Assembly: GCF_001298735.1 (NCBI RefSeq)
Contig: NZ_CYSP01000009.1
Span: forward strand, 62,001 to 126,000
Length of the DNA stretch: 64,000 nucleotides
DNA from: Propionispora sp. 2/2-37
GTDB taxonomy: Bacteria; Bacillota; Negativicutes; Propionisporales; Propionisporaceae
Direction of reading: 5' to 3'
A program made the position numbers and the translations under genes. The notes under the pieces are model-generated. The model was not told the DNA's origin. It did not search any database and saw nothing but the letters and a program-made list of their open reading frames with translations. Positions 40,406-62,044 of this stretch are shown in pieces; the first letter of the stretch is position 1; every line of letters starts with the position of its first letter.

Positions 40406-40434
40406 TTGACATAATTGAAAAATTGTCTTATTAT
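40406..40434 (+). promoter_or_regulatory. Promoter of the c-di-AMP riboswitch transcript
   Basis: TTGACA (40406-40411), 17-base spacer, TATTAT (40429-40434). Confidence 0.75.
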
Positions 40435-40441
40435 ATCTATA

Positions 40442-40585
40442 ATGCCGAATCCTTGTAGGTACGGGGGAACCGATAGAAATATAGGGGTGAATCCAGATTT
40501 TTTTGGAGGGGTTATTCTCTAATCTTCTCTTTTACCCTAACCCGACAGCTAACCTCGGAGGCTGAGATGCCACAATCCTGCCTTG
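40442..40585 (+). ncRNA. ydaO-yuaA riboswitch (c-di-AMP)
   Basis: Conserved blocks in order: CCGAATCCTTG (40445), GGTACGGGGGAACC (40458-40471), GGGGTGAATCC (40484), GGGGTTATTCTCT (40509), TACCCTAACCCGACAGCTAACCTC (40533-40556) and GGAGGC. This is the class that senses c-di-AMP and typically turns off wall hydrolase and ion transport genes. Downstream CCACAATCCTGC / GCGGATGTGG complementarity (40569-40614) may form the expression platform; no T run follows, so control may be other than simple termination. Confidence 0.92.
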
Positions 40586-41271: not shown

Positions 41272-42002
41272 ATGGTGAAAAATACTGTGAAAGAATTCTG
41301 GCTTAGAGAAAGCAATATTTTATTGGCTGCCGTTTTACATGAGGCTGTGTCAGACAAGGTTCTGATTATTTGCCATGGATTTCTTGGTTCGAAAGATGGG
41401 AGCGGACGAGCCGTTTTACTGCAAACGAAGTGACAAACCTGGGAATAGCAGTAGTACGGTTTGATTTTACTCCTTTGGGAAATATTACCAGACAGGTTGA
41501 GGAAGTTAGTGCCGTCGTAAATTACTGCCGGCAGGTACTTGAAAGGCGTAGAATCTATTTGCTGGGGCGTAGTATGGGAGGCAGTGCTGCATTGGTTTAT
41601 GCTGCTCAATATGGCCACATTGCCGGTATTTGTTTGTGGGCTACGCCATGGGATTTAAGAGAAACTTTTCGGCTGGTTTTACATGAGGATTATGAGAAAC
41701 TGGTGATGGGACAAACTATAGGTATAGACACCGGTAATAAAACAATTATCTTACAACCGGATTTTATCCAGGACTTTGCTAACTATCAGTTATTGTCATC
41801 CATAAAGCAGTTAAATGTCCCTGTATTCATACTCCATGGTGATCAGGATGAAATTGTTCCTGTACAGCAGGCTCAACTGCTGTATCAGAGTGCAAAGCAA
41901 CCCAAAAAGATCCATGTCATTCATGGTGGTGATCACCAACTGCATAAATTTTATGCCGAGAGCACGAAAGTCATTTTGTCATGGCTTCATTCTGTTTGTT
42001 AA
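41272..42002 (+). pseudogene. Alpha/beta hydrolase broken by a one-base frameshift
   Basis: Two frames together make one serine hydrolase of about 243 residues. Frame from ATG 41272 gives VLIICHGFLGSKDGSGRAVLL and ends at TGA 41431. The next frame continues with ANEVTNLGIAVVRFDFTPLGN, the nucleophile elbow GRSMGG (Ser), HGDQDEIVP (Asp) and GGDHQL (His) to 42002. A single missing base near 41420 accounts for the break, because LL then joins directly to ANE. The oxyanion HGF motif and the triad thus lie in different frames. It could be a real pseudogene or a sequencing error. Confidence 0.8.
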
Positions 42003-42055
42003 AGGTGGTATATGAACCCGAGACTAATGCCATAATAAATTTAACTAGAAGAATT

Positions 42056-42082
42056 GCCCTGTTAACTCCATTAGTTCAGGGC
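42056..42082 (+). repeat. Hairpin before the YdcZ-type gene
   Basis: GCCCTG / CAGGGC outer stem with inner AACT / AGTT; followed by ATGTTTGTTTT. It could be the terminator of the hydrolase gene. Confidence 0.5.
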
Positions 42083-42109
42083 ATGTTTGTTTTAAGGAGT
42101 GCATTATTT

Positions 42110-42559
42110 TTGGATATATCAAATCACATTATGGCATTAGGCTTGGCTTTGCTTTCCGGTATCTTAATGGCAGTACAGGGGTCGTTGAACGCAGCATTAA
42201 GCAAAGTAATTGGGCTGATGGAAACAACATTTATTGTTCATCTTATCGGAACAGTGCTGCTGATTGTTATCCTGTTTTTGCTAAAATTGGGTCGCGGGAA
42301 TTTGTATGCTTTAACTGACGCTCCTTGGTATGCCTATTTAGGAGGAGTGATCAGTATCTTTATCATCTATCTGGTTGCCGCCAGCATTCCGCAGGCAGGC
42401 ATGGCTAATGCCACTACGGCAATTATTGTCGGGCAAGTACTGACTGCGATTATCATTGATCATCTCGGTGCCTTTGGTATGGAGCAGGCATCCTGGGAAT
42501 GGAATGATCTGGCGGGTTTAGCACTGCTGGCTATTGGTGCTTATTTGCTGTTGAAGTAA
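42110..42559 (+). CDS. YdcZ/DUF606-type small DMT membrane protein
   Basis: 149 residues from TTG 42110, ten bases after AGGAG (42095-42099); the frame is open further upstream but without SD. Five hydrophobic segments: ALGLALLSGILMAVQGSLNA is the characteristic first one, then IVHLIGTVLLIVILFLL, YAYLGGVISIFIIYLVA and ATTAIIVGQVLTAIIID and a C-terminal one. Members are half-size drug/metabolite transporters whose substrate is unknown. Confidence 0.85.
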   Translation: MDISNHIMALGLALLSGILMAVQGSLNAALSKVIGLMETTFIVHLIGTVLLIVILFLLKLGRGNLYALTDAPWYAYLGGVISIFIIYLVAASIPQAGMANATTAIIVGQVLTAIIIDHLGAFGMEQASWEWNDLAGLALLAIGAYLLLK

Positions 42560-42635: not shown

Positions 42636-42712
42636 GGGGTTATAGCTCAGTTGGTTAGAGCGCTTCGTTGACATCGAAGAGGTCAGGGATTCGAGTTCCT
42701 TTAACCCCACCA
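42636..42712 (+). tRNA. tRNA-Val (anticodon GAC), CCA encoded
   Basis: Acceptor stem GGGGTTA/TAACCCC, D arm GCTC-AGTTGGTTA-GAGC, anticodon arm CTTCG-TTGACAT-CGAAG with GAC at 42669-42671, variable loop AGGTC, T arm AGGGA-TTCGAGT-TCCTT, discriminator A, encoded CCA. All stems pair. Its 3' half is duplicated at 44986. Confidence 0.95.
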
Positions 42713-42764
42713 GTAAATACGCGGGTTTGCAGGTTGTCTGTGAACCCGCTTTTTTGCGTTTTCT
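42667..42764 (+). repeat. Direct repeat, copy 1 (tRNA-Val 3' half plus terminator)
   Basis: From the anticodon loop (GTTGACATCGAAGAGGTC) through the CCA and the terminator to GCGTTTTCT. About 97 bases recur at 44986-45081 with scattered mismatches and one deletion. It is the intact end and looks like the attachment site of an integrated element. Confidence 0.85.
42721..42755 (+). terminator. Terminator of tRNA-Val
   Basis: GCGGGTT / AACCCGC hairpin (15-base loop) followed by TTTTTT. Confidence 0.85.
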
Positions 42765-42930
42765 AGTCTTGCTAATCAACTCAGCTATAGCCCCTCATTT
42801 TAATTTCTATAAAGGTTCCGCAAATTGTCGATTTGGCCGATGTTATTTTTTGAGTGGGATAAATTCCAGTAAATTGCCAATACCGCAATTCAACAACGTA
42901 TAAATACGGGCCACACCAGTTTATTTAGAA

Positions 42931-42959
42931 TTGATTTGCCAAGAAGAATATGTTATATT
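42931..42959 (+). promoter_or_regulatory. Promoter of the cupin regulator gene
   Basis: TTGATT (42931-42936), 17-base spacer, TATATT (42954-42959). Confidence 0.5.
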
Positions 42960-42990
42960 ATATATTGTTCGTTATAGTGGAGGAGCAGTT

Positions 42991-43563
42991 ATGGACAATT
43001 TGAAATCTATCATTGTAGAACGAATGAAAATGATCAGATACAACAAGCAATTGAGTCTGGATCAGGCGGCGGAAATCACAGGAACCAGCAAAGCTATGTT
43101 AAGTCAGATTGAACGTGGCCAGTCAATGCCTACTATTACAACATTATGGAAAATTGCCACGGGATATAAGGTCCCGCTTACGTATTTTTTGGAAGAGGAA
43201 AAAAGCAGTTATACTTTAGTTGATTATTCCCAATCGAAGCCGGTTTTTGAAGAAAACGGCAAGATGCGGACATATACGCTTTTCCCATATAATCCTGTCC
43301 AAAACTTTGAAATGCTGTATATTGAATTCGATCAAGGCTGTGTACATGAATCCTCAAAACACATGGATGGTGTAGAGGAATATATTTTTGTTCAGACAGG
43401 AAGTCTGGAACTGCGCCTGGGGCAGGAAAAGCTTAGGATTTTCGAAAAACAGTGCTTTCGATTTAAAGGAGATATCCCACACAGCTATGTGAATTTAACG
43501 CAAGATCCGTGTACCATTTTAAATATTATATTTTATCCGGGCGCCATGTCTATAAACATATAG
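42991..43563 (+). CDS. XRE-family regulator with C-terminal cupin domain
   Basis: 190 residues from ATG 42991 (GGAGGAG upstream). HTH_3 domain (LDQAAEITGTSKAMLSQIERGQSMPTITTL split over residues 20-50) and a cupin domain (about 105-185: MDGVEEYIFVQTGSLELRLG, FRFKGDIPHSY). Such regulators bind a small ligand in the cupin and usually control an adjacent transporter. Here the next gene, ten bases downstream, is a DMT exporter. It lies inside the tRNA-flanked island. Confidence 0.9.
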   Translation: MDNLKSIIVERMKMIRYNKQLSLDQAAEITGTSKAMLSQIERGQSMPTITTLWKIATGYKVPLTYFLEEEKSSYTLVDYSQSKPVFEENGKMRTYTLFPYNPVQNFEMLYIEFDQGCVHESSKHMDGVEEYIFVQTGSLELRLGQEKLRIFEKQCFRFKGDIPHSYVNLTQDPCTILNIIFYPGAMSINI

Positions 43564-43573
43564 GAGACTCCAT

Positions 43574-44494
43574 ATGAAAAAAGCATTTTTACTAGGTATA
43601 GCAGGCTCTTTCTTTTTTGCATTCACATTTGTCTTAAACAGAAGCATGAATTTGTCCGGGGGAAGCTGGATATGGAGTGCGAGCCTCCGTTTTTTGTTCG
43701 CCCTGCCGATTATGGCATTGATTGTCAAAAAGAGATATGGATTTCAAAATGTCCATAAGGCGATTAAAAAGCAGTATAAAGAGTGGCTAATATGGAGCAC
43801 CATCGGCTTTGGACTTTTTTACGCGCCACTTTCCTATGCCGGAGACCATGGAGAGGCATGGCTGATTGCGGCATCATGGCAAATAACAATTGTCACGGGG
43901 ATACTCATGACACCTTTATTCGGTAAAAGAATTCCCGTTAAAAATCTATGTGCATCCGGGATTATACTAATGGGCGTTTTTTTATTGCAACTCTGCAATT
44001 TAGAGGATTTGAAAATACATACAATCTTGTTAACGGTTCTACCAATACTTGTCGCGGCCATTTCCTATCCACTTGGAAACAGGAAGATGATGGAGGTTTG
44101 TGGCAATCAATTGTCCACGATAGAGCGTGTTTATGGAATGATATTATCCAGTATTCCTTTCTGGCTCATATTGTCCCTTTGGGGTGTGGTAAAAGTAGGA
44201 TTACCTTCTTTGTCACAAACGCTACAATCGTTTTGTGTTGCTTTGTTTTCGGGGAGTATCGCCACCTTGCTGTTTTTCAAGGCCACCGATTATGTGAAAT
44301 CAAATCAGAGATGGATTGCTGTCATTGAATCGACACAGTCAGGTGAAGTTGTTTTTTCTCTTTTAGGCGGTATTCTGTTACTAGGTGATGCATTCCCTGA
44401 TTTTTGGGGGGTGGTTGGAATTTTGCTTATTATCTTTGGAATGATTTTGAATAGCCTTTTATCGTCTGTCAGTCGAAAGGGTGTAAGGGCATAA
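43574..44494 (+). CDS. EmrE/DMT-type multidrug or metabolite exporter
   Basis: 306 residues with about ten membrane segments (first: FLLGIAGSFFFAFTFVLNRSM; last: VVGILLIIFGMILNSLL). Two-repeat layout of the DMT superfamily, close to the multidrug-resistance efflux family PF13536. Likely exports a compound sensed by the upstream cupin regulator; no substrate can be named. The transcript probably ended at the hairpin now split by the MITE-like element. Confidence 0.85.
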   Translation: MKKAFLLGIAGSFFFAFTFVLNRSMNLSGGSWIWSASLRFLFALPIMALIVKKRYGFQNVHKAIKKQYKEWLIWSTIGFGLFYAPLSYAGDHGEAWLIAASWQITIVTGILMTPLFGKRIPVKNLCASGIILMGVFLLQLCNLEDLKIHTILLTVLPILVAAISYPLGNRKMMEVCGNQLSTIERVYGMILSSIPFWLILSLWGVVKVGLPSLSQTLQSFCVALFSGSIATLLFFKATDYVKSNQRWIAVIESTQSGEVVFSLLGGILLLGDAFPDFWGVVGILLIIFGMILNSLLSSVSRKGVRA

Positions 44495-44570
44495 GTTTAT
44501 TGGAAGGCGGTTTAGTATTGATTAAGATTATGAACTTGGTAATATTTACATTAGCTGATTGCAATAGAGA

Positions 44571-44647
44571 CCAAAGAAAAACGAAGCAATATTATTTATG
44601 ATATATATAAGGAACAGGATGTTTCTTCAAAGATGATAGCGCCTTAA
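44571..44647 (+). other. Possible gene remnant in the island
   Basis: A short stretch reads as IAIETKEKRSNIIYDIYKEQ then DVSSKMIAP and a stop, with coding-like character but no start or SD. It may be the end of a lost gene. Not recognised; low confidence. Confidence 0.2.
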
Positions 44648-44667
44648 GGAACGCCTGTAAGATTATT

Positions 44668-44828
44668 GCCCGGCGGCTTTTAGGGCCTGTTGACAAACTG
44701 CTTCTAAACCCTTAAATTCACAAAAAATGGCATTTAAAACCCTAGTAGTTTCACGGGTTCTCAAATGCCATTTTTTTACGAAAAAGTCTTTTGTCAACAA
44801 GCCCTTTTAGCTGCCGGGCTTATTTTTT
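44668..44828 (+). terminator. Terminator hairpin split by an insertion
   Basis: GCCCGGCGG (44668-44676) and CTGCCGGGC (44811-44819) are complementary (one G-T pair) and the right arm is followed by TTATTTTTT. Removing 44684-44803 and one copy of the 7-bp duplication restores a compact hairpin with the loop CTTTTAG. Confidence 0.7.
44684..44803 (+). mobile_element. 120-bp MITE-like element with 7-bp target duplication
   Basis: Terminal inverted repeats GGCCTGTTGACAAA (44684-44697) and TTTGTCAACAAGCC (44790-44803) match at 13 of 14 positions. CTTTTAG flanks both sides (44677-44683 and 44804-44810). Inside, AAAAAATGGCATTT and AAATGCCATTTTTT form a perfect 14-bp stem (44722-44735 and 44763-44776). 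No coding capacity, so it would have been moved by a transposase encoded elsewhere. Confidence 0.8.
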
Positions 44829-44985
44829 GGGGGTACCAGAGTTGTGGGATAGTCGCGAACCGAGGCAACTTTCTCCGGCGACATACATTCCGCGATCGGT
44901 TTTCGCTGACATTCAGACACATGCCGCTATTACGGACAAGTTCGGTATTTCGGAACAGGTTGTGTCCGCTAGACCTGTGAGCCAA

Positions 44986-45081
44986 GTTGACATCGAAGAG
45001 GTCGGAGATTCGAGTTCCTTTAACCCCGCCGGTAATACGTGGCTTTGTAGGCTATCTGTGAAGCCGTTTTTCGTGTTTTCT
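44986..45081 (+). repeat. Direct repeat, copy 2 (displaced tRNA-Val 3' half)
   Basis: GTTGACATCGAAGAGGTC, then the T arm and TAACCCC, a degenerate CCA (GCC) and a degenerate terminator GGCTT / AAGCC + GTTTTT. No D arm or acceptor 5' strand lies upstream, so it is not a functional tRNA. It marks the far end of the island. Confidence 0.85.
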
Positions 45082-45296
45082 ATTTTCCCGAATTACCATA
45101 GTTAATTTGATTTTTGTTATTGTCATGGTGTAAATGTGTTGAAGATGGCAATAGTTTATGCTTTATTATTAGAAACTTGGTGTTGTGGAGTTCTAGAGTG
45201 GCGTGAGTGCCTCATATGACGTGTCTACGAATCGTGGGCTTTATTGCTTAAAGACATGTGTCTATAATTCTTTCAAAAAAACAAATCTGCTTAAAT
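45082..45296. other. Intergenic stretch without recognised features
   Basis: About 215 bases between the displaced tRNA half and the 3' end of the RpiR gene. I see no gene, no clear terminator and no strong promoter. Confidence 0.5.
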
Positions 45297-46151
45297 TTAT
45301 AATCGATGCTTAGCGATTTCCCGACGCCATTGCTTCAGGTTTTCTATATAGCTGTCGGGATCTTTCATAATGATACAGGTATATAACACATCAGCAATAG
45401 CCAGGTGAACCAGTCTAGAAGCAGTTGATTCGGAACGATAGGTAACTTCGCAGCCCATACCGCTTAGAACAATATCAGCCAGTTTAGTTATTGGTGAATT
45501 GGGGTAACCGGTGATGACAATAATGGGAGCGCCGGAATTCTTGGCAACTTTTACGGAATTTAATAAGTCGATATTAGAACCGGTGTGCGAAATGGCAATC
45601 AAAACGTCTTCCGGCGTAAGCAAGGATGCTGAAATAGCTTGCATATGCGTATCGGAAAATGAATGTGCCGATTTGGTAAGGCGTATCAAATGATTTTCCA
45701 TGTCGTGAGCTACAATGCTGGACATGCCCAGAGCGTAAATATCAATTTTGCGGGCGGAGTTGATTTTTTCGGCGGCAGCTTCCATGGCAGAAAAATCAAG
45801 AATCTTTAATGTATCCTGCAGGCCAGTGCAAATATTGCCGAATAATTTCTTTGCCATGTATTCAACAGAATCGTCGACTTTGATATCTTGGAACACCGAT
45901 TCTAAAGGAGTAAATATTTCTCCGGACAACGATATCTTAAGATCCTGTAATCCACTAAAACCTGCTTTACGGCAAAAACGCGATACGGTGATTTCCGATG
46001 TATTCGTTTTTTCGGCTATTTCCGATATGGTCTGCTTCATAGCCTGTTGTGGATAGTTTGAAATATAAGCTGCCAATTTCTGCTCTGATTTGGTGAAGTT
46101 TTTATAATATGGAACTAAAAAAGACAGTAGATTGGGTGAGGAGTTTTCCAT
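45297..46151 (-). CDS. RpiR/MurR-family transcriptional regulator
   Basis: 284 residues: N-terminal HTH_6 domain (AAYISNYPQQAMKQTISEIA, TNTSEITVSRFCRKAGFSG, about 25-75) and C-terminal SIS domain (about 110-250: IDIYALGMSSIVAHDMENHL, DVLIAISHTGSNIDLLN) that binds a phosphosugar. It is divergent from the PTS/dehydrogenase operon and is most likely its regulator, responding to a phosphorylated sugar acid. SD GGGAGGA in front of the ATG at 46151. Confidence 0.92.
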   Translation of the reverse strand: MENSSPNLLSFLVPYYKNFTKSEQKLAAYISNYPQQAMKQTISEIAEKTNTSEITVSRFCRKAGFSGLQDLKISLSGEIFTPLESVFQDIKVDDSVEYMAKKLFGNICTGLQDTLKILDFSAMEAAAEKINSARKIDIYALGMSSIVAHDMENHLIRLTKSAHSFSDTHMQAISASLLTPEDVLIAISHTGSNIDLLNSVKVAKNSGAPIIVITGYPNSPITKLADIVLSGMGCEVTYRSESTASRLVHLAIADVLYTCIIMKDPDSYIENLKQWRREIAKHRL

Positions 46152-46553
46152 GTCACCAATCCTCCCTATGAATAATTGATTGGCTTGTAAAACTTATTGT
46201 TGATAGAAGTATATCATTTATTATAAAAAAAATGCAATAACTACATCAAAAAAGTGTTGTGATTTTTGCGAATTTAGGATACAATTAAAACAAATGAAAA
46301 GAAATTATCAAAAAATATTATTTTAAATGAAGTAGTACTATCTTTAGTCTGTATTTTTTTAATATTATTGATATTGAATACTTGACAGTTTCATAATATT
46401 GAAATTTCTAAATATACATTTTTTTAATGTTTATAAGTCAAATTAAAATATATCTAAATTTTCTGATATTCAATAGGCTGAATATCTGTCATTTACATCG
46501 TTTTAATTTGATTTATATATCTAAGTCTAGTATCCATAATGGAGGGAGTTACT
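46152..46553. promoter_or_regulatory. Divergent control region between RpiR regulator and sugar-acid operon
   Basis: About 400 AT-rich bases. Plus-strand promoter candidates: TTGTGA-17-TACAAT (46257-46285), and TTGACA at 46382 with a weak -10. An inverted repeat TTTCA-N6-TGAAA lies at 46389-46404. No gene is visible here. The long leader is unusual for this type of operon. Confidence 0.45.
46389..46404 (+). promoter_or_regulatory. Candidate RpiR operator
   Basis: TTTCATAATATTGAAA: 5-bp dyad arms with a 6-base centre, overlapping the spacer of a TTGACA (46382-46387) promoter. The arm sequence resembles reported RpiR-family sites; assignment is inference. Confidence 0.35.
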
Positions 46554-47510
46554 TTGAACAAAGTACTAATTACCGCCCGCTCGGCTGCGCACTGTGGGGA
46601 ATGCCTTGATTTATTAAAACAAAATGGCTGTGAGGTGATTGATGGTTCTGGTGATGCACCGCGGAGCGAAAATGAAATGACTGCACTCATAACCGGGGTA
46701 GACGCTGTAATCGCCGGCGTTGATGAGGTAAGTGCCAAGGTTATTGCAGCCGGTAAGCCTACCTTGAAAGTAATCAGCCGGAATGGAGTCGGCTATAACA
46801 AGGTAGATGTACAGGCTGCACGGGCTAATGGGGTAGTAGTAACCTTGAGTCTGGGAACCAATAATATTTCCGTATGCGAACTGGTTTTTGGGTTACTTTT
46901 GTCGGTAGGGAGAAATATTGTCCGGCAAAACGAAGTGGTCCGTGCCGGTGGATGGCAAAGAACTCAGGGCATAGAATTGTTTGGTAAGACACTGGGGGTC
47001 ATTGGTACCGGCCATATTGGCACAGAGGTTATTAAACGGGCTAAGGCGTTTGGTATGAGAACGCTGGCATTTGATTTGTATCCTCTGGCAGAACTGTCGG
47101 AATTATACGGGACGAGGTATGTTAGCCTGGAGGAGCTTTATAAAGAAGCCGACATGATCACCTTACATGTTCCCGCAACGAAAGCGACAATGGGTATGAT
47201 TAATGAAGAAGTTTTACAATCGATGAAAGACTCTGCAATCATAATTAATACGGCACGAGGGGATTTAGTTCATGAAGAGGCTTTAGCGGTTGCTTTGAAG
47301 ACCGGAAAAATTGCAGGTTATGGTGCCGATACGACCGTTCAGGAGCCGCCGGAAAAGGGGCATCCCTTTTTAGATCTCCCCAATGTGGTAATTACTCCAC
47401 ATTGTGGAGGCTATACTCGGGAAGCTGTAGTGCGCTGCAGTGTGACAGCTGCCGAAGAGGTATTAAGGGTGTTGCGCGGGGAAAAACCGTTGTTTCCAGT
47501 GACTCATTAA
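46554..47510 (+). CDS. D-2-hydroxyacid dehydrogenase (first of two)
   Basis: 318 residues from TTG 46554, eight bases after GGAGG (46541-46545); an in-frame ATG at 46539 lies before that SD. NAD(H) domain motif GVIGTGHIGTEV (about 146), catalytic residues Arg in NTARGDLV, Glu in TTVQEPPEKG and His in TPHCGG. Family members reduce 2-keto acids, including 2-ketogluconate and phosphoglycerate-type substrates. First gene of the sugar-acid operon; 27 bases before the aldolase. Confidence 0.9.
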   Translation: MNKVLITARSAAHCGECLDLLKQNGCEVIDGSGDAPRSENEMTALITGVDAVIAGVDEVSAKVIAAGKPTLKVISRNGVGYNKVDVQAARANGVVVTLSLGTNNISVCELVFGLLLSVGRNIVRQNEVVRAGGWQRTQGIELFGKTLGVIGTGHIGTEVIKRAKAFGMRTLAFDLYPLAELSELYGTRYVSLEELYKEADMITLHVPATKATMGMINEEVLQSMKDSAIIINTARGDLVHEEALAVALKTGKIAGYGADTTVQEPPEKGHPFLDLPNVVITPHCGGYTREAVVRCSVTAAEEVLRVLRGEKPLFPVTH

Positions 47511-47537
47511 GGATAGATTAAGCTAGGAGGTTGAAAA

Positions 47538-48191
47538 ATGTCGAATTTATTAAGAAAATATCAGACCGTCCAAAGGATTATCGATGTCGGTGTGGTAGCG
47601 GTTGTTCGCGCTGAAACTGAAGAACAGGCCAAGAAAATTGCGGATGCCTGCATAGCGGGAGGTGTCACTGCCATTGAGATGACATTTACTGTGCCGGATG
47701 CACATAAAGTTATGGAAAGTTTAGCGCAGATGTATTCGCCGGAGCAGTTGATATTAGGTGCAGGTACTGTACTGGATCCTGAAACTGCCCGCATAGCTAT
47801 TTTAAGCGGGGCCAGCTATGTAGTAACGCCCATGTTGTCGCTGCCGACGGTTACGTTGTGTAATCGTTACCATGTTCCGGTAATGCCCGGTGCAGCGACT
47901 GCCAAAGAGGCGGTGGAGGCTTTAGAAGCCGGTGCCGACGTGATCAAGGTATTTCCGGGGGAATTATACGGACCGAAAGTCATAAAGGCCTTGAAGGGAC
48001 CGCTGCCACAGGCTAATTTCATGCCGACCGGTGGCGTGACCCCGGATAATGCCGCGGAATGGATCAAAGCCGGAGCAGTAGCAATCGGAGCCGGCGGGGC
48101 ATTAAGCGGGCCTGCAGCTAAGGGTGATTATGCCGGTGTAACTGAAAATGCCAAAAAATTTATTGCCGCAGTAAAATCGGCCCGCAGTTAA
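47538..48191 (+). CDS. KDPG/KHG-type aldolase
   Basis: 217 residues, class I trimeric aldolase of the Entner-Doudoroff type (KDPG to pyruvate plus glyceraldehyde 3-phosphate). The Schiff-base Lys is in ADVIKVFPGELYGP (about 138), the general base Glu in IEMTFTVPD (about 48), and the phosphate loop in PTGGVTPDN. No 6-phosphogluconate dehydratase or KDG kinase gene is adjacent, so how its substrate arises is unclear. Confidence 0.9.
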   Translation: MSNLLRKYQTVQRIIDVGVVAVVRAETEEQAKKIADACIAGGVTAIEMTFTVPDAHKVMESLAQMYSPEQLILGAGTVLDPETARIAILSGASYVVTPMLSLPTVTLCNRYHVPVMPGAATAKEAVEALEAGADVIKVFPGELYGPKVIKALKGPLPQANFMPTGGVTPDNAAEWIKAGAVAIGAGGALSGPAAKGDYAGVTENAKKFIAAVKSARS

Positions 48192-48232
48192 CGGTAGTAA
48201 TGAATGATTTCGAATTTACCTTTTAGGAGAGG

Positions 48233-49240
48233 ATGAATACGCACATGAGAACTAAAATTGCCATAGTCAATTCCAGCAGTTTTGGAGAAATTTTTCCGGA
48301 GCATATAGAAAGGCTGGAAGCTCTGGGCGAGATTAAAAAATTTACCTTGCCTAAAGACCTGGGAGGGAAAGAACTGGCGGAATGCCTGAAGGGTCATGAA
48401 GTTATTATAGCTAGTGTGACGGCACTATATAACAGAGAATTTTTTGAGCATAAAGATAGGACGCTGTTGATTTCCCGGCATGGTATTGGTTACAACAATA
48501 TTGATGTTACAGCAGCTACTGAGAAAGGCACCCTGGTTACCAAGGTTTCCAGTCTGATTGAAAGGGAAGCCGTAGCCGAAAATGCGGTTGCATTACTGAT
48601 GACCGTGATGCGCAAAGTGCGGGAAGCTTCATGGGAGGCTAAGGAGGGTAAGTGGGCAGAACGGGCAAGGTTCGTTGGCAATGAGATTAAAGATAAAACA
48701 GTGGGTGTTATCGGTTTTGGTAATATTGGCAGCAGAGTCGGCGAAATATTAAAATATGGTTTTAATGCAAAACTGGTTGCTTATGACCCCGAACTATCAG
48801 CAGAAAAGATACAACAAAGAGGCGCAATACCCGTTACGCTGGAAGAACTGCTTTCCACAGCAGATATTATTTCGCTGAATGCCTGTGTAACTCCCCTGAA
48901 TTATCATTTGCTTTCTGCGCAACAATTTTCTCTTCTAAAAAAGAAGGTATTTCTCGTCAATACTGCCCGCGGGGAACTAATGGATGAGAATGCGCTGATT
49001 GATGCTTTAGATAATGGCACAATAGCAGGGGCTGGTCTTGATGTGATCGAAGGTGAGCCAATTACAGCAGAACATCCTTTACTCAAATATGAAAATGTAG
49101 TCATTACTCCTCATACTTCTGCCTATACCTATGAATGCTTATATGGTATGGGGAATAAGGTTGTTACTGATGTAGAAAGGGTACTTGCCGGTCAGATTCC
49201 GGAGAATGTTATTAATACAGAAGTTTTATCCTGCAGATAA
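48233..49240 (+). CDS. D-2-hydroxyacid dehydrogenase (second of two)
   Basis: 335 residues from ATG 48233, or 331 from ATG 48245 (MRTKIAIVNSSSFG), which lines up better with its paralogue; AGGAGAGG at 48225-48232 is close to the first and far from the second. NAD motif GVIGFGNIGSRVGEI, catalytic Arg in NTARGELM, Glu in DVIEGEPI and His in TPHTSA. Clearly a paralogue of the 46554 gene but diverged, so the two probably act on different 2-keto or 2-hydroxy acids. Confidence 0.9.
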   Translation: MNTHMRTKIAIVNSSSFGEIFPEHIERLEALGEIKKFTLPKDLGGKELAECLKGHEVIIASVTALYNREFFEHKDRTLLISRHGIGYNNIDVTAATEKGTLVTKVSSLIEREAVAENAVALLMTVMRKVREASWEAKEGKWAERARFVGNEIKDKTVGVIGFGNIGSRVGEILKYGFNAKLVAYDPELSAEKIQQRGAIPVTLEELLSTADIISLNACVTPLNYHLLSAQQFSLLKKKVFLVNTARGELMDENALIDALDNGTIAGAGLDVIEGEPITAEHPLLKYENVVITPHTSAYTYECLYGMGNKVVTDVERVLAGQIPENVINTEVLSCR

Positions 49241-49330
49241 TGCCGGAGTTATGGTTAGAGGATGGACATACAGTAACGTTTTGTGTTTTTTTGTTTAATA
49301 ATTTAAATTTATGAAAAAGAGGTGTGGGAA

Positions 49331-50098
49331 ATGGGAGAAATAAGTGTAACCCAGGCGGCTCTTATTGCGCTGTGGGTAACGGTAGTTCAGGCTCGTGCTC
49401 TAGGTTATTCAACGTTAATGCTCAGGTTTAGCCCAATGATGACAGGTTTAGTTGTCGGTATCGTCTTAGGTAATGTACCGTTGGCTATGACAATTACGGC
49501 GGCTATTCAATTAATTTATATGGGCATGATAGCGCCCGGTGGTGCCATGCCAAGCGAACCGGCCGTCGCAACCGCGATAGCGGTACCGGTTGCCATGCTC
49601 GCCGGTTTGGCACCTACAGAAGCGATTGCGGTAGCTGTACCGGTTGGCCTTTTAGGCAGTTACATTTATTCTTTTCGATTTTTTATTAACTCATTTATTG
49701 TTCGATTGATGGATAAGTATGCTGCGGAAACGAATGACAAGGGATTGACTTTTGCTATTATCATTCTTCCGATAGCTGTTAGTATGGTTTTGTTCTTTCC
49801 ATTACTGTTTGTGGGTCTCTATGCAGGGGCTCCTGTCATTGCGTCCTTCCTTTCTCAGCTTTCAGGAGGAACCGTATTCCATGTCTTAGGGGCTGTTGGC
49901 GGTGGACTTGCTGCATTAGGTATTGCTTTGATTATGAAGGTAATTGGAAAAACTCAGTTTATTGTGTTCTTTTTGCTGGCATATTTCATGGCGGTAAGTT
50001 TTAAAAGCCTAGGGATCAATACGGTAACTTACGCCATTTTTGGTGGTATTATTGCGTATCTGTATACAATTTTTGCCAATGAAAATGTTGAACGCTAA
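49331..50098 (+). CDS. PTS system mannose/fructose/sorbose-family IIC component
   Basis: 255 residues, polytopic permease subunit. ISVTQAALIALWVTVVQARA and the motif MIAPGGAMPSEPAVATAIAVP are typical of mannose-family IIC. ATG 49331 follows GAGGTG; a GTG at 49322 overlaps it. Works with IID as membrane channel for phosphorylating uptake. First of four PTS genes in the operon. Confidence 0.95.
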   Translation: MGEISVTQAALIALWVTVVQARALGYSTLMLRFSPMMTGLVVGIVLGNVPLAMTITAAIQLIYMGMIAPGGAMPSEPAVATAIAVPVAMLAGLAPTEAIAVAVPVGLLGSYIYSFRFFINSFIVRLMDKYAAETNDKGLTFAIIILPIAVSMVLFFPLLFVGLYAGAPVIASFLSQLSGGTVFHVLGAVGGGLAALGIALIMKVIGKTQFIVFFLLAYFMAVSFKSLGINTVTYAIFGGIIAYLYTIFANENVER

Positions 50099-50107
50099 AA
50101 GGAGTGA

Positions 50108-50992
50108 ATGACCATGAGTGAAGAATTTGTTGACAAACAGACAAACAATATTGCTCCTCCGGAGAAAATTACGACCAAAGACTTAGCCAAGAGTTGGTTT
50201 CGGTGGTGGTACGCCAATGAAATTCCGCATAGTTTTGACAGAATGATAGCTCCCTCATTGTTATGGGCATTAATGCCGATATTAAGAAAATTATATAAAG
50301 AGGAGCGGCATTTAAAAGAAGCCTACGAAAGGCATACGCAGTTTTATAATACGCAGGCGATCTGGGGTGGAGGAACGATACTGGGGATAACCATATCGCT
50401 GGAAGAGGCCAGAGCCAAAGGATTGGCTGATGGCAGTGTTGATCCGGACAGTGAAGAGAGCGGAATTATTAATGCTACAAAAGTTGGTTTGATGGGGCCG
50501 CTGGCTGGTATCGGGGATGCCATTGACTCTGGTACGGTTCAGTATATTTTACTGGCCATTTTCTTGCCGTGGGCACAGGCAGGGAGTGGCCTGGGAGCGT
50601 TGATACCCTGGCTTGCTTTTGTGGTTTTAACCTATCTATATGGCTTTTATTTTGTAAGATTAGGGCATGGATTAGGCCGGGCAGCAGTCAGTGAAATTGT
50701 TGGCGGTAAAAATATAAAGAGGATTATCAATGGGTTATCCGTGTTAGGGATATTTATGATGGGGATTTTGGCAGCCTCTTATGTAAAAGTGGGAAGCAGC
50801 CTGAAGTGGACTATATCCGGTAAAGAGTTTGCCCTTCAGCAGATATTCGACCAAATCCTGCCCGGGTTGCTGCCGTTGATTACTGTTATGGGAATATATT
50901 GGTATTTCACCAAAAAGGGATTAAAAATAACGCAGGCACTTGTAGGAACGTCCGTTATTTTAGGAGTTCTGGCAGCGGTTGGCATATTGTAG
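50108..50992 (+). CDS. PTS system mannose/fructose/sorbose-family IID component
   Basis: 294 residues (start ATG 50108 or 50114). Family motifs HSFDRMIAPS, HTQFYNTQAIWGGGTILGI and KVGLMGPLAGIGDAIDSGTV are present, with membrane segments in the C-terminal half. IID is found only in the mannose PTS family, which also transports gluconate, glucosaminate and amino sugars. Nine bases after IIC. Confidence 0.95.
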   Translation: MTMSEEFVDKQTNNIAPPEKITTKDLAKSWFRWWYANEIPHSFDRMIAPSLLWALMPILRKLYKEERHLKEAYERHTQFYNTQAIWGGGTILGITISLEEARAKGLADGSVDPDSEESGIINATKVGLMGPLAGIGDAIDSGTVQYILLAIFLPWAQAGSGLGALIPWLAFVVLTYLYGFYFVRLGHGLGRAAVSEIVGGKNIKRIINGLSVLGIFMMGILAASYVKVGSSLKWTISGKEFALQQIFDQILPGLLPLITVMGIYWYFTKKGLKITQALVGTSVILGVLAAVGIL

Positions 50993-51078
50993 GATTGGAT
51001 CACGCAGCGATAATAACAGGTTGTCCTGTTATATCGTTAACTAGGATGGATTGGTCATGTTAATTATGAGGTGAGTTT

Positions 51079-51474
51079 ATGAAACAAACGGCTGTGTTAA
51101 TTATTACACACGGAAAATTCGGCATAGAATTACTAAAAAGTGTTGAAATGATTATTGGTGAACAACAAGATGCCTTTGCATTGGGACTGTGCTTAGGTAA
51201 CGATGTGGATGATTTGCGTAATGATGCCGAAAAAATTGTCAGAAAAGCAAAAGAATCAGGGAAAGATGTTATTATTCTTGTCGATCTATTGGGTGGCAGT
51301 CCGTCCAATGTTGCCCTGTATATGGCCAAGGCCCATGATGTCAAGGTAGTTACCGGTGTTAATATATTAATGCTCATAGAATTATTTTCTTCCCGGGAGT
51401 CCAAAGAGGTGGATGAGCTTCTTGCGGCCGTGGTTAGCACCGGAGTGGAAGGCATAAAACAATTTCCACAATAA
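51079..51474 (+). CDS. PTS system mannose-family IIA component
   Basis: 131 residues, cytosolic. Phosphorylated by HPr on His11 in LIITHGKFG; LVDLLGGSPSNVAL is the second family motif. IIA is a separate protein here, not fused to IIB. 86 bases after IID. Confidence 0.94.
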   Translation: MKQTAVLIITHGKFGIELLKSVEMIIGEQQDAFALGLCLGNDVDDLRNDAEKIVRKAKESGKDVIILVDLLGGSPSNVALYMAKAHDVKVVTGVNILMLIELFSSRESKEVDELLAAVVSTGVEGIKQFPQ

Positions 51475-51496
51475 AAAAGTAGAGAGGGATGATAAA

Positions 51497-51991
51497 ATGG
51501 GTGCAATTTGTTTAACCAGAGTGGATGATCGGTTAATTCATGGTCAGGTTATGACAAAATGGTCAAAGGGTGGTTTTAACAGTAATGCAATTTTTGTTGT
51601 GGATGACGAAATAGCAAAAGATCCTTTTATGAAAGATATCTATGCCATGTCGACTGCCAACTCGGGAATGACGATTAAAGTATTTTCTATAGATGGCGCC
51701 GTAGAGTATTGGGAAAAAGCTAATTTTGAAAACGACAGAGCCATTTTACTGTTTAAAACCATTGCTGCCGTCAAACAAGCTATTGAAAAAGGATTGCCGA
51801 TAGATAATTTAAATGTGGGCGGAATCAGCAAGAAAAAAGATGCAAAGTTTGTAATTGACAGCGTAGCATTGCTTTCAAGCGATGTTGAAATACTGAAGGA
51901 GTTAAATGGCAAGGGGGTAAAGATATTTTTCCAGACAGTTCCGGATACCAAATTGGTTAGTTTTGAAAGTGGATTAAAGTCAATATCTTAA
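51497..51991 (+). CDS. PTS system mannose-family IIB component
   Basis: 164 residues, cytosolic. Phospho-acceptor His15 in RVDDRLIHGQVMTKW; FKTIAAVKQAIEKG and NVGGIS are typical. It takes phosphate from IIA and passes it to the sugar carried by IIC/IID. Confidence 0.95.
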   Translation: MGAICLTRVDDRLIHGQVMTKWSKGGFNSNAIFVVDDEIAKDPFMKDIYAMSTANSGMTIKVFSIDGAVEYWEKANFENDRAILLFKTIAAVKQAIEKGLPIDNLNVGGISKKKDAKFVIDSVALLSSDVEILKELNGKGVKIFFQTVPDTKLVSFESGLKSIS

Positions 51992-61900: not shown

Positions 61901-62044
61901 AAAAAAGCGTAAATATTCAAATTCCGATAACTAATTAGGGAGGGTGTGGTCTCTTGTGTTGACCGCCGAATTCTTTTGGAAACTGTTTAAAGCTACAGGT
62001 TCTGTTGCTGCGTATTTATCCTATCGACAATTAATGATACAATA

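Follow-up and report, generated by a model that had tools for sequence, protein, structure and literature searches.

A probable remnant of an integrated element, devoid of its integrase, at the tRNA-Val(GAC) gene of Propionispora sp. 2/2-37

The tRNA-Val(GAC) gene of Propionispora sp. 2/2-37 is followed by a detached second copy of its own 3' half, and the interval of about 2.2 kb between the two is very probably the immobile remnant of an element that integrated at the anticodon loop of this gene and has since shed its integrase and the bulk of its sequence. The stretch of DNA that was analysed, referred to as the window, comprises 64,000 nucleotides (positions 62,001 to 126,000 of contig NZ_CYSP01000009.1). 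The interval is regarded as a relic, and not as a functional island, because no integrase is present in it. At the level of sequence, this reading draws on the duplicated half, its exact boundary, the integrase-bearing elements that occupy the same site in relatives and an attP of this design on a viral contig. The features of the locus are collected in Table 1.

Table 1. Features at and around the tRNA-Val(GAC) gene, in window coordinates
Feature	Position	Strand	Evidence and remarks
YdcZ-type (DMT_YdcZ) membrane protein ORF	41981..42559	+	Pfam PF04657 1.4e-36; start codon uncertain
tRNA-Val(GAC)	42636..42712	+	ARAGORN; Rfam RF00005 70.3 bits; target gene, putatively reconstituted
tRNA 3' half, anticodon loop to terminator; putative proximal attachment-site copy	42667..42765	+	Repeat; starts where the distal copies of relatives and the viral attP start
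Inverted fragment of the tRNA 5' half	42772..42797	-	blastn E 2e-4; 26 bp, 88%
HTH-cupin transcription regulator (putative cargo)	42991..43563	+	Pfam HTH_3 1.6e-12, Cupin_2 3.8e-8
EmrE/EamA-type DMT exporter (putative cargo)	43574..44494	+	Pfam PF13536 5.8e-98
Intrinsic-terminator hairpin, loop interrupted by a MITE-like element	44668..44821	.	Inverted repeat
Displaced tRNA-Val 3' half and terminator; putative distal attachment-site copy, decayed	44986..45082	+	Repeat, alignment
RpiR-family regulator, the gene bordering the remnant on its right	45297..46151	-	Pfam HTH_6/SIS

According to ARAGORN, tRNA-Val(GAC) is the sole tRNA in the window; it has one full match in the genome, where it is the single copy of this isoacceptor found, and the in-place copy has a normal fold and score (Table 1). 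Its 3' half recurs in the same orientation 2,319 bp away, start to start, and the repeat begins with the last base ahead of the anticodon loop (TTGACAT, 42668-42674, read from the sequence). Identity reaches 92% over the first 50 bp (42667-42716 and 44986-45035), while the gapped match (42667-42765 and 44986-45082) covers 97 aligned bases that are 88% identical, its 99 columns containing 12 substitutions (10 transitions and 2 transversions) and two 1-bp gaps. This match has E = 9e-25 in a genome-wide search, which finds no further copy of the half and, besides the full tRNA-Val and the distal half, only one weak match (73%); the duplicate is therefore not due to chance.

The repeat described in the initial annotation is thus a real, single recurrence, with its ends at 42765 and 45082. 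The annotation had also stated that the distal copy lacks a tRNA 5' half, and a search of the 31 bases upstream of that copy agrees, yielding 10 identities out of 31, which is within the range of shuffled sequence. The distal half is mutated in its T-stem and CCA end, as would be expected of a copy free to decay. The divergence had furthermore been taken to suggest an old event, but the age is not readable from divergence alone: the 12% by which the halves differ is no clock, since attP and attB may already have been unlike at the time of integration.

The comparison with relatives and viral contigs provides the main argument for an integrase. An alignment of 11 sites, comprising distal copies, the viral attP and tRNA genes, showed that every distal copy and the viral sequence agree from T33, a position of the anticodon loop, as far as the CCA end, whereas the sequences before T33 are unrelated; the distal copy of the window has the same boundary as the other aligned sites. 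Several of these sites are accompanied by integrases. In G037, an integrase of 430 aa lies directly downstream of an intact tRNA-Val, and at a distance of 21 kb a detached 3' half has a second integrase next to it. G008 has a prophage at this gene: tRNA-Val is followed by a 402-aa integrase and, 47 kb further on, by the detached 3' half, a distal site shared by a 48-kb IMG/VR provirus contig. Additionally, the viral contig L179 carries the 3' half, with CCA and terminator, next to an integrase gene immediately downstream; a 3' half devoid of its 5' half and adjoining an integrase identifies this sequence as an attP. With regard to the viral contigs in general, the commoner T-arm version of the pattern gave two element copies, the exact pattern of the window's own 3' half had no match, and a match on contig L178 was rejected as an element copy as it sits inside a full tRNA-Val. 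Phage and plasmid collections returned nothing useful. Integrases next to tRNA-Val elsewhere, which the initial annotation had proposed to look for, are therefore present directly downstream of the gene in both G008 and G037 and beside the attP of the viral contig, while the congener G001 has a remnant of one, and the relatives' detached halves start at the same anticodon-loop position. Its interpretation of the locus as the relic of an island gains support from both.

The congener G001 has a detached 3' half 5.2 kb downstream of its tRNA-Val. This displaced half shares 98% identity with the window's tRNA-Val and has the T-arm type of the genus, shared by the window and the second congener, G002, whereas the G001 tRNA-Val itself has a different T-arm. 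Such a swap fits integration, in which the functional gene would receive its 3' half from the element while its previous one is displaced. Next to the displaced half lies a remnant of 50 aa with 74% identity to the C-terminal end of the G037 integrase. Beyond the displaced half, G001 also contains Wadjet-like defence genes (L031 2105-4220 and L056 11533-14983), a set made up of DUF3375, DUF4194, SMC-like and topoisomerase-like ORFs.

The following course of events is proposed for the window. A temperate phage or an integrative island with a lambda-like tyrosine integrase would have entered the anticodon loop of tRNA-Val(GAC). Its attP would have borne the tRNA 3' half and terminator, so that the left junction would have a reconstituted tRNA, while the 3' half that originally belonged to the gene would be moved to the right junction. 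Deletions may then have removed the integrase and the greater part of the element. What is left would be a 2.2-kb remnant made up of a regulator–exporter pair, a MITE-like element that inserted afterwards and a distal 3' half in decay. We infer the identity of the element, the loss of the integrase, the order of these events and the arrival of the cargo with the element. Counting against this scheme are the lack of an integrase, or of any other phage or conjugation gene, in the interval, the normal codon use of the regulator, the lack among the relatives of an empty site with the same right flank, and the presence of the terminator in both copies, which would require attP and attB to have been alike beyond the tRNA itself.

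The contents of the interval are those that the initial annotation had listed, a cupin regulator, a DMT exporter and a MITE-like element with no integrase, as confirmed by the domain matches and by the finding of a further copy of the repeat. The phage-type integrase domain (PF00589) has no match in the window, pieces of three integrases known from the tRNA-Val site were sought between 42700 and 45300 without any being recognisable, and the interval holds no other phage or conjugation gene. The proposed check of GC and codon use was partly favourable to a foreign origin: GC is low, at 39.8% against 43.3 +/- 1.9% for the window (4th percentile), and the exporter is atypical in codon use (z = -3.9), whereas the codon use of the regulator is not. 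The exporter is present in 8 of 60 relatives, with its closest relatives among Clostridia proteins (71-73%), and was not found in either congener or in the one other genome of the same family. The idea that regulator and exporter travel as a pair was rejected, since they are adjacent in only four other loci, with regulators of 41-45% identity that do not lie beside the closest exporters. From the exporter to the distal half, a span of 490 bases, only the repeat element gave matches, and an ORF at 44791-45105 matches no family.

The MITE-like element (44682-44806) is a 125-bp inverted-repeat element with an apparent TTTTA target duplication. Its second copy (G000:C6:241555-241675, 95%), beyond which the genome has no further one, likewise lies in a terminator loop, and in both cases the loop is duplicated (TTTTA and TTCG, respectively), which suggests loop-targeted insertion. 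About 1.3 kb from this second copy there is an integrase remnant (L149 8084-8284, on G000:C6) with 41% identity to the L179 integrase over 63 aa, probably another degraded element of the same genome.

The surroundings of the tRNA are conserved on one side only. YdcZ is the upstream neighbour of tRNA-Val in most of the class: of 17 genomes in which the two genes were seen together, 14 keep their order and orientation. G001 and G002 are about 94-98% identical on both sides of the variable region; downstream of the tRNA they have almost nothing in common for 10-24 kb, except for a diverged LevR-like regulator gene. The RpiR regulator to the right of the remnant has an orthologue of 88-89% identity at G001:C8:75643-76494, which places the operon on another contig in that genome. 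As the YdcZ side is kept, the downstream DNA differs even between congeners and the RpiR-PTS genes lie elsewhere in G001, the downstream side is a hotspot. A comparison with relatives lacking the island, as the initial annotation had envisaged, was thus informative for the conserved YdcZ side and the wholly different downstream side, but provided no empty site with the same right flank: no relative was found that shares the right flank of the window, or both flanks around an empty site, the left flank being conserved. Near tRNA-Val, the window contains at 45297-51991 an operon with the RpiR regulator, two 2-hydroxyacid dehydrogenases, a KDPG aldolase-like gene and a mannose-family PTS, while G001 and G002 have an unrelated mannose-family PTS operon with a LevR-like regulator in this place. 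On the other side, a c-di-AMP riboswitch (ydaO/yuaA leader, 80.7 bits) lies at 40433-40578, upstream of a gene for a 3D-domain cell-wall protein.

The window may record a single integration or several stacked ones. The second course, a variant compatible with the main reading, is given an appreciable but lesser probability. An older element would then have its left end at the half at 44986 and may survive in part as the RpiR-PTS block, and the 2.2-kb interval would be a younger element that displaced this half from the tRNA. Tandem elements at tRNA-Val do occur, as seen from the two integrases and two halves of G037 and from the integrase remnant beyond the displaced half of G001. Moreover, the location of the RpiR operon elsewhere in G001 means that it is not an ancestral neighbour of the tRNA there, and the two window copies have the same terminator type, also found in G020 of another family (94%, 126 bp). 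Against stacking, no integrase remnant was found to the right of 45082 and no third half in the genome, and the RpiR operon resembles resident metabolic DNA (GC 42%).

The other two explanations dispense with an integrated element. That recombination, transposition or repair of the ordinary kind duplicated the 3' half would agree with the lack of an integrase and with the transposon-like repeat nearby, but it is very unlikely, as it leaves unaccounted for the same anticodon-loop start in four genomes and a viral contig, and the MITE-like element, which has a target duplication of its own, stops well short of the half copy. The decay of a second, tandem tRNA-Val at 44986 that lost its 5' half, for which a distant relative with two full tRNA-Val genes about 160 bp apart (G018) offers a precedent, is hardly credible given that the 3' half is well kept while the 5' half is gone (10/31, shuffle-like), that the boundary is the anticodon loop, as in the integrase-bearing elements and the viral attP, that two foreign-looking genes lie in between, and that the ancestral array allowed for in the initial annotation is not what relatives show, since G001 and G002 have one full tRNA-Val(GAC) each and no congener has a pair.

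A further trace of the tRNA is an inverted piece of its 5' half, located 60 bp past the gene and just beyond the terminator. This fragment scored 20, and none of the other control segments of the window exceeded 12, the two equal scores coming from overlapping segments that contain the fragment itself. Similar pieces occur in G001, where a perfect 25-bp inverted fragment lies 146 bp past the tRNA, and in G008, where one of 30 bp lies 137 bp past the distal half; both end exactly at the start of the 3' half, at the same anticodon position. Among 380 genomes of the class, only 2 have the spaced arrangement of 3' half and inverted 5' half, which is therefore characteristic of a single element lineage at most. 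Next to the inverted 5' half, no relic of a promoter could be demonstrated.

The tRNA-Val gene itself is inverted relative to YdcZ in G002 (L032 8742-8818), G020 (L033 7968-8044) and G021 (L036 5884-5960), which represent three families; in G002, a congener of the window, the promoter is inverted along with the tRNA. This orientation was rejected as the ancestral one, co-orientation with YdcZ being the common state. It is conceivable, though improbable, that elements of this site family carry the 3' half with an inverted 5' half 60-150 bp further on, and that the opposed halves could flip the tRNA gene, accounting for the stray pieces in the window, G001 and G008 as well as for the independently inverted genes of G002, G020 and G021. 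The link between the inverted pieces and the inverted genes is only a guess.

The remnant belongs to a known and common kind of event and involves no new mechanism, although the comparative support is unusually clean and the inverted 26-bp piece of the 5' half past the tRNA is new. Islander (PMC4383910) recognises islands by an intact tDNA and a displaced 3' tDNA fragment, classifies crossovers in the anticodon loop as class A and has collected thousands of islands with such a signature, about half of them with an anticodon-centred site. The window shares with these islands a full tRNA upstream and, downstream, a displaced 3' half in the same orientation that reaches the 3' end. Its end fragment starts at a known crossover subsite, the anticodon loop, and its length of 2,319 bp lies within the 2-200 kb that Islander accepts. 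It differs in its decayed distal half, in the very little cargo left and in having no tyrosine integrase inside, for which Islander's own filter would reject it. The locus is useful for mapping integrase-less islands that standard island finders miss.

The closest counterparts use the same gene. The G008 prophage (IMG/VR 2588253753_000001) and the viral contig IMGVR_UViG_3300042923_000341 have the same tRNA-Val(GAC) site and the same 3'-half boundary as the window, but are 47-48 kb long, possess integrase genes and have another T-arm (CTGCGG...CCGCC). The G001 island resembles the window in its locus after YdcZ, its boundary, the lack of an intact integrase and the inverted 5' fragment near the tRNA, and differs in its length of 5.2 kb, its dUTPase and dCTP deaminase-like genes and the integrase remnant and Wadjet-type genes beyond, the two having no common cargo. 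For phages, it has been described what part the 3' half plays in attP and how the tRNA is rebuilt at attL (PMC10865867). The phages of tRNA-dependent lysogeny (PMC10865867) also have tyrosine integrases that act at the anticodon loop of host tRNA genes; these phages carry their own tRNA and do not rebuild that of the host, whereas the element of the window would have carried a 3' half and rebuilt the tRNA. Taken with the congener G001, where the tRNA itself seems to be partly replaced by element DNA, these cases point to tRNA-Val(GAC) as an insertion hotspot used repeatedly by phages and islands in this bacterial class.
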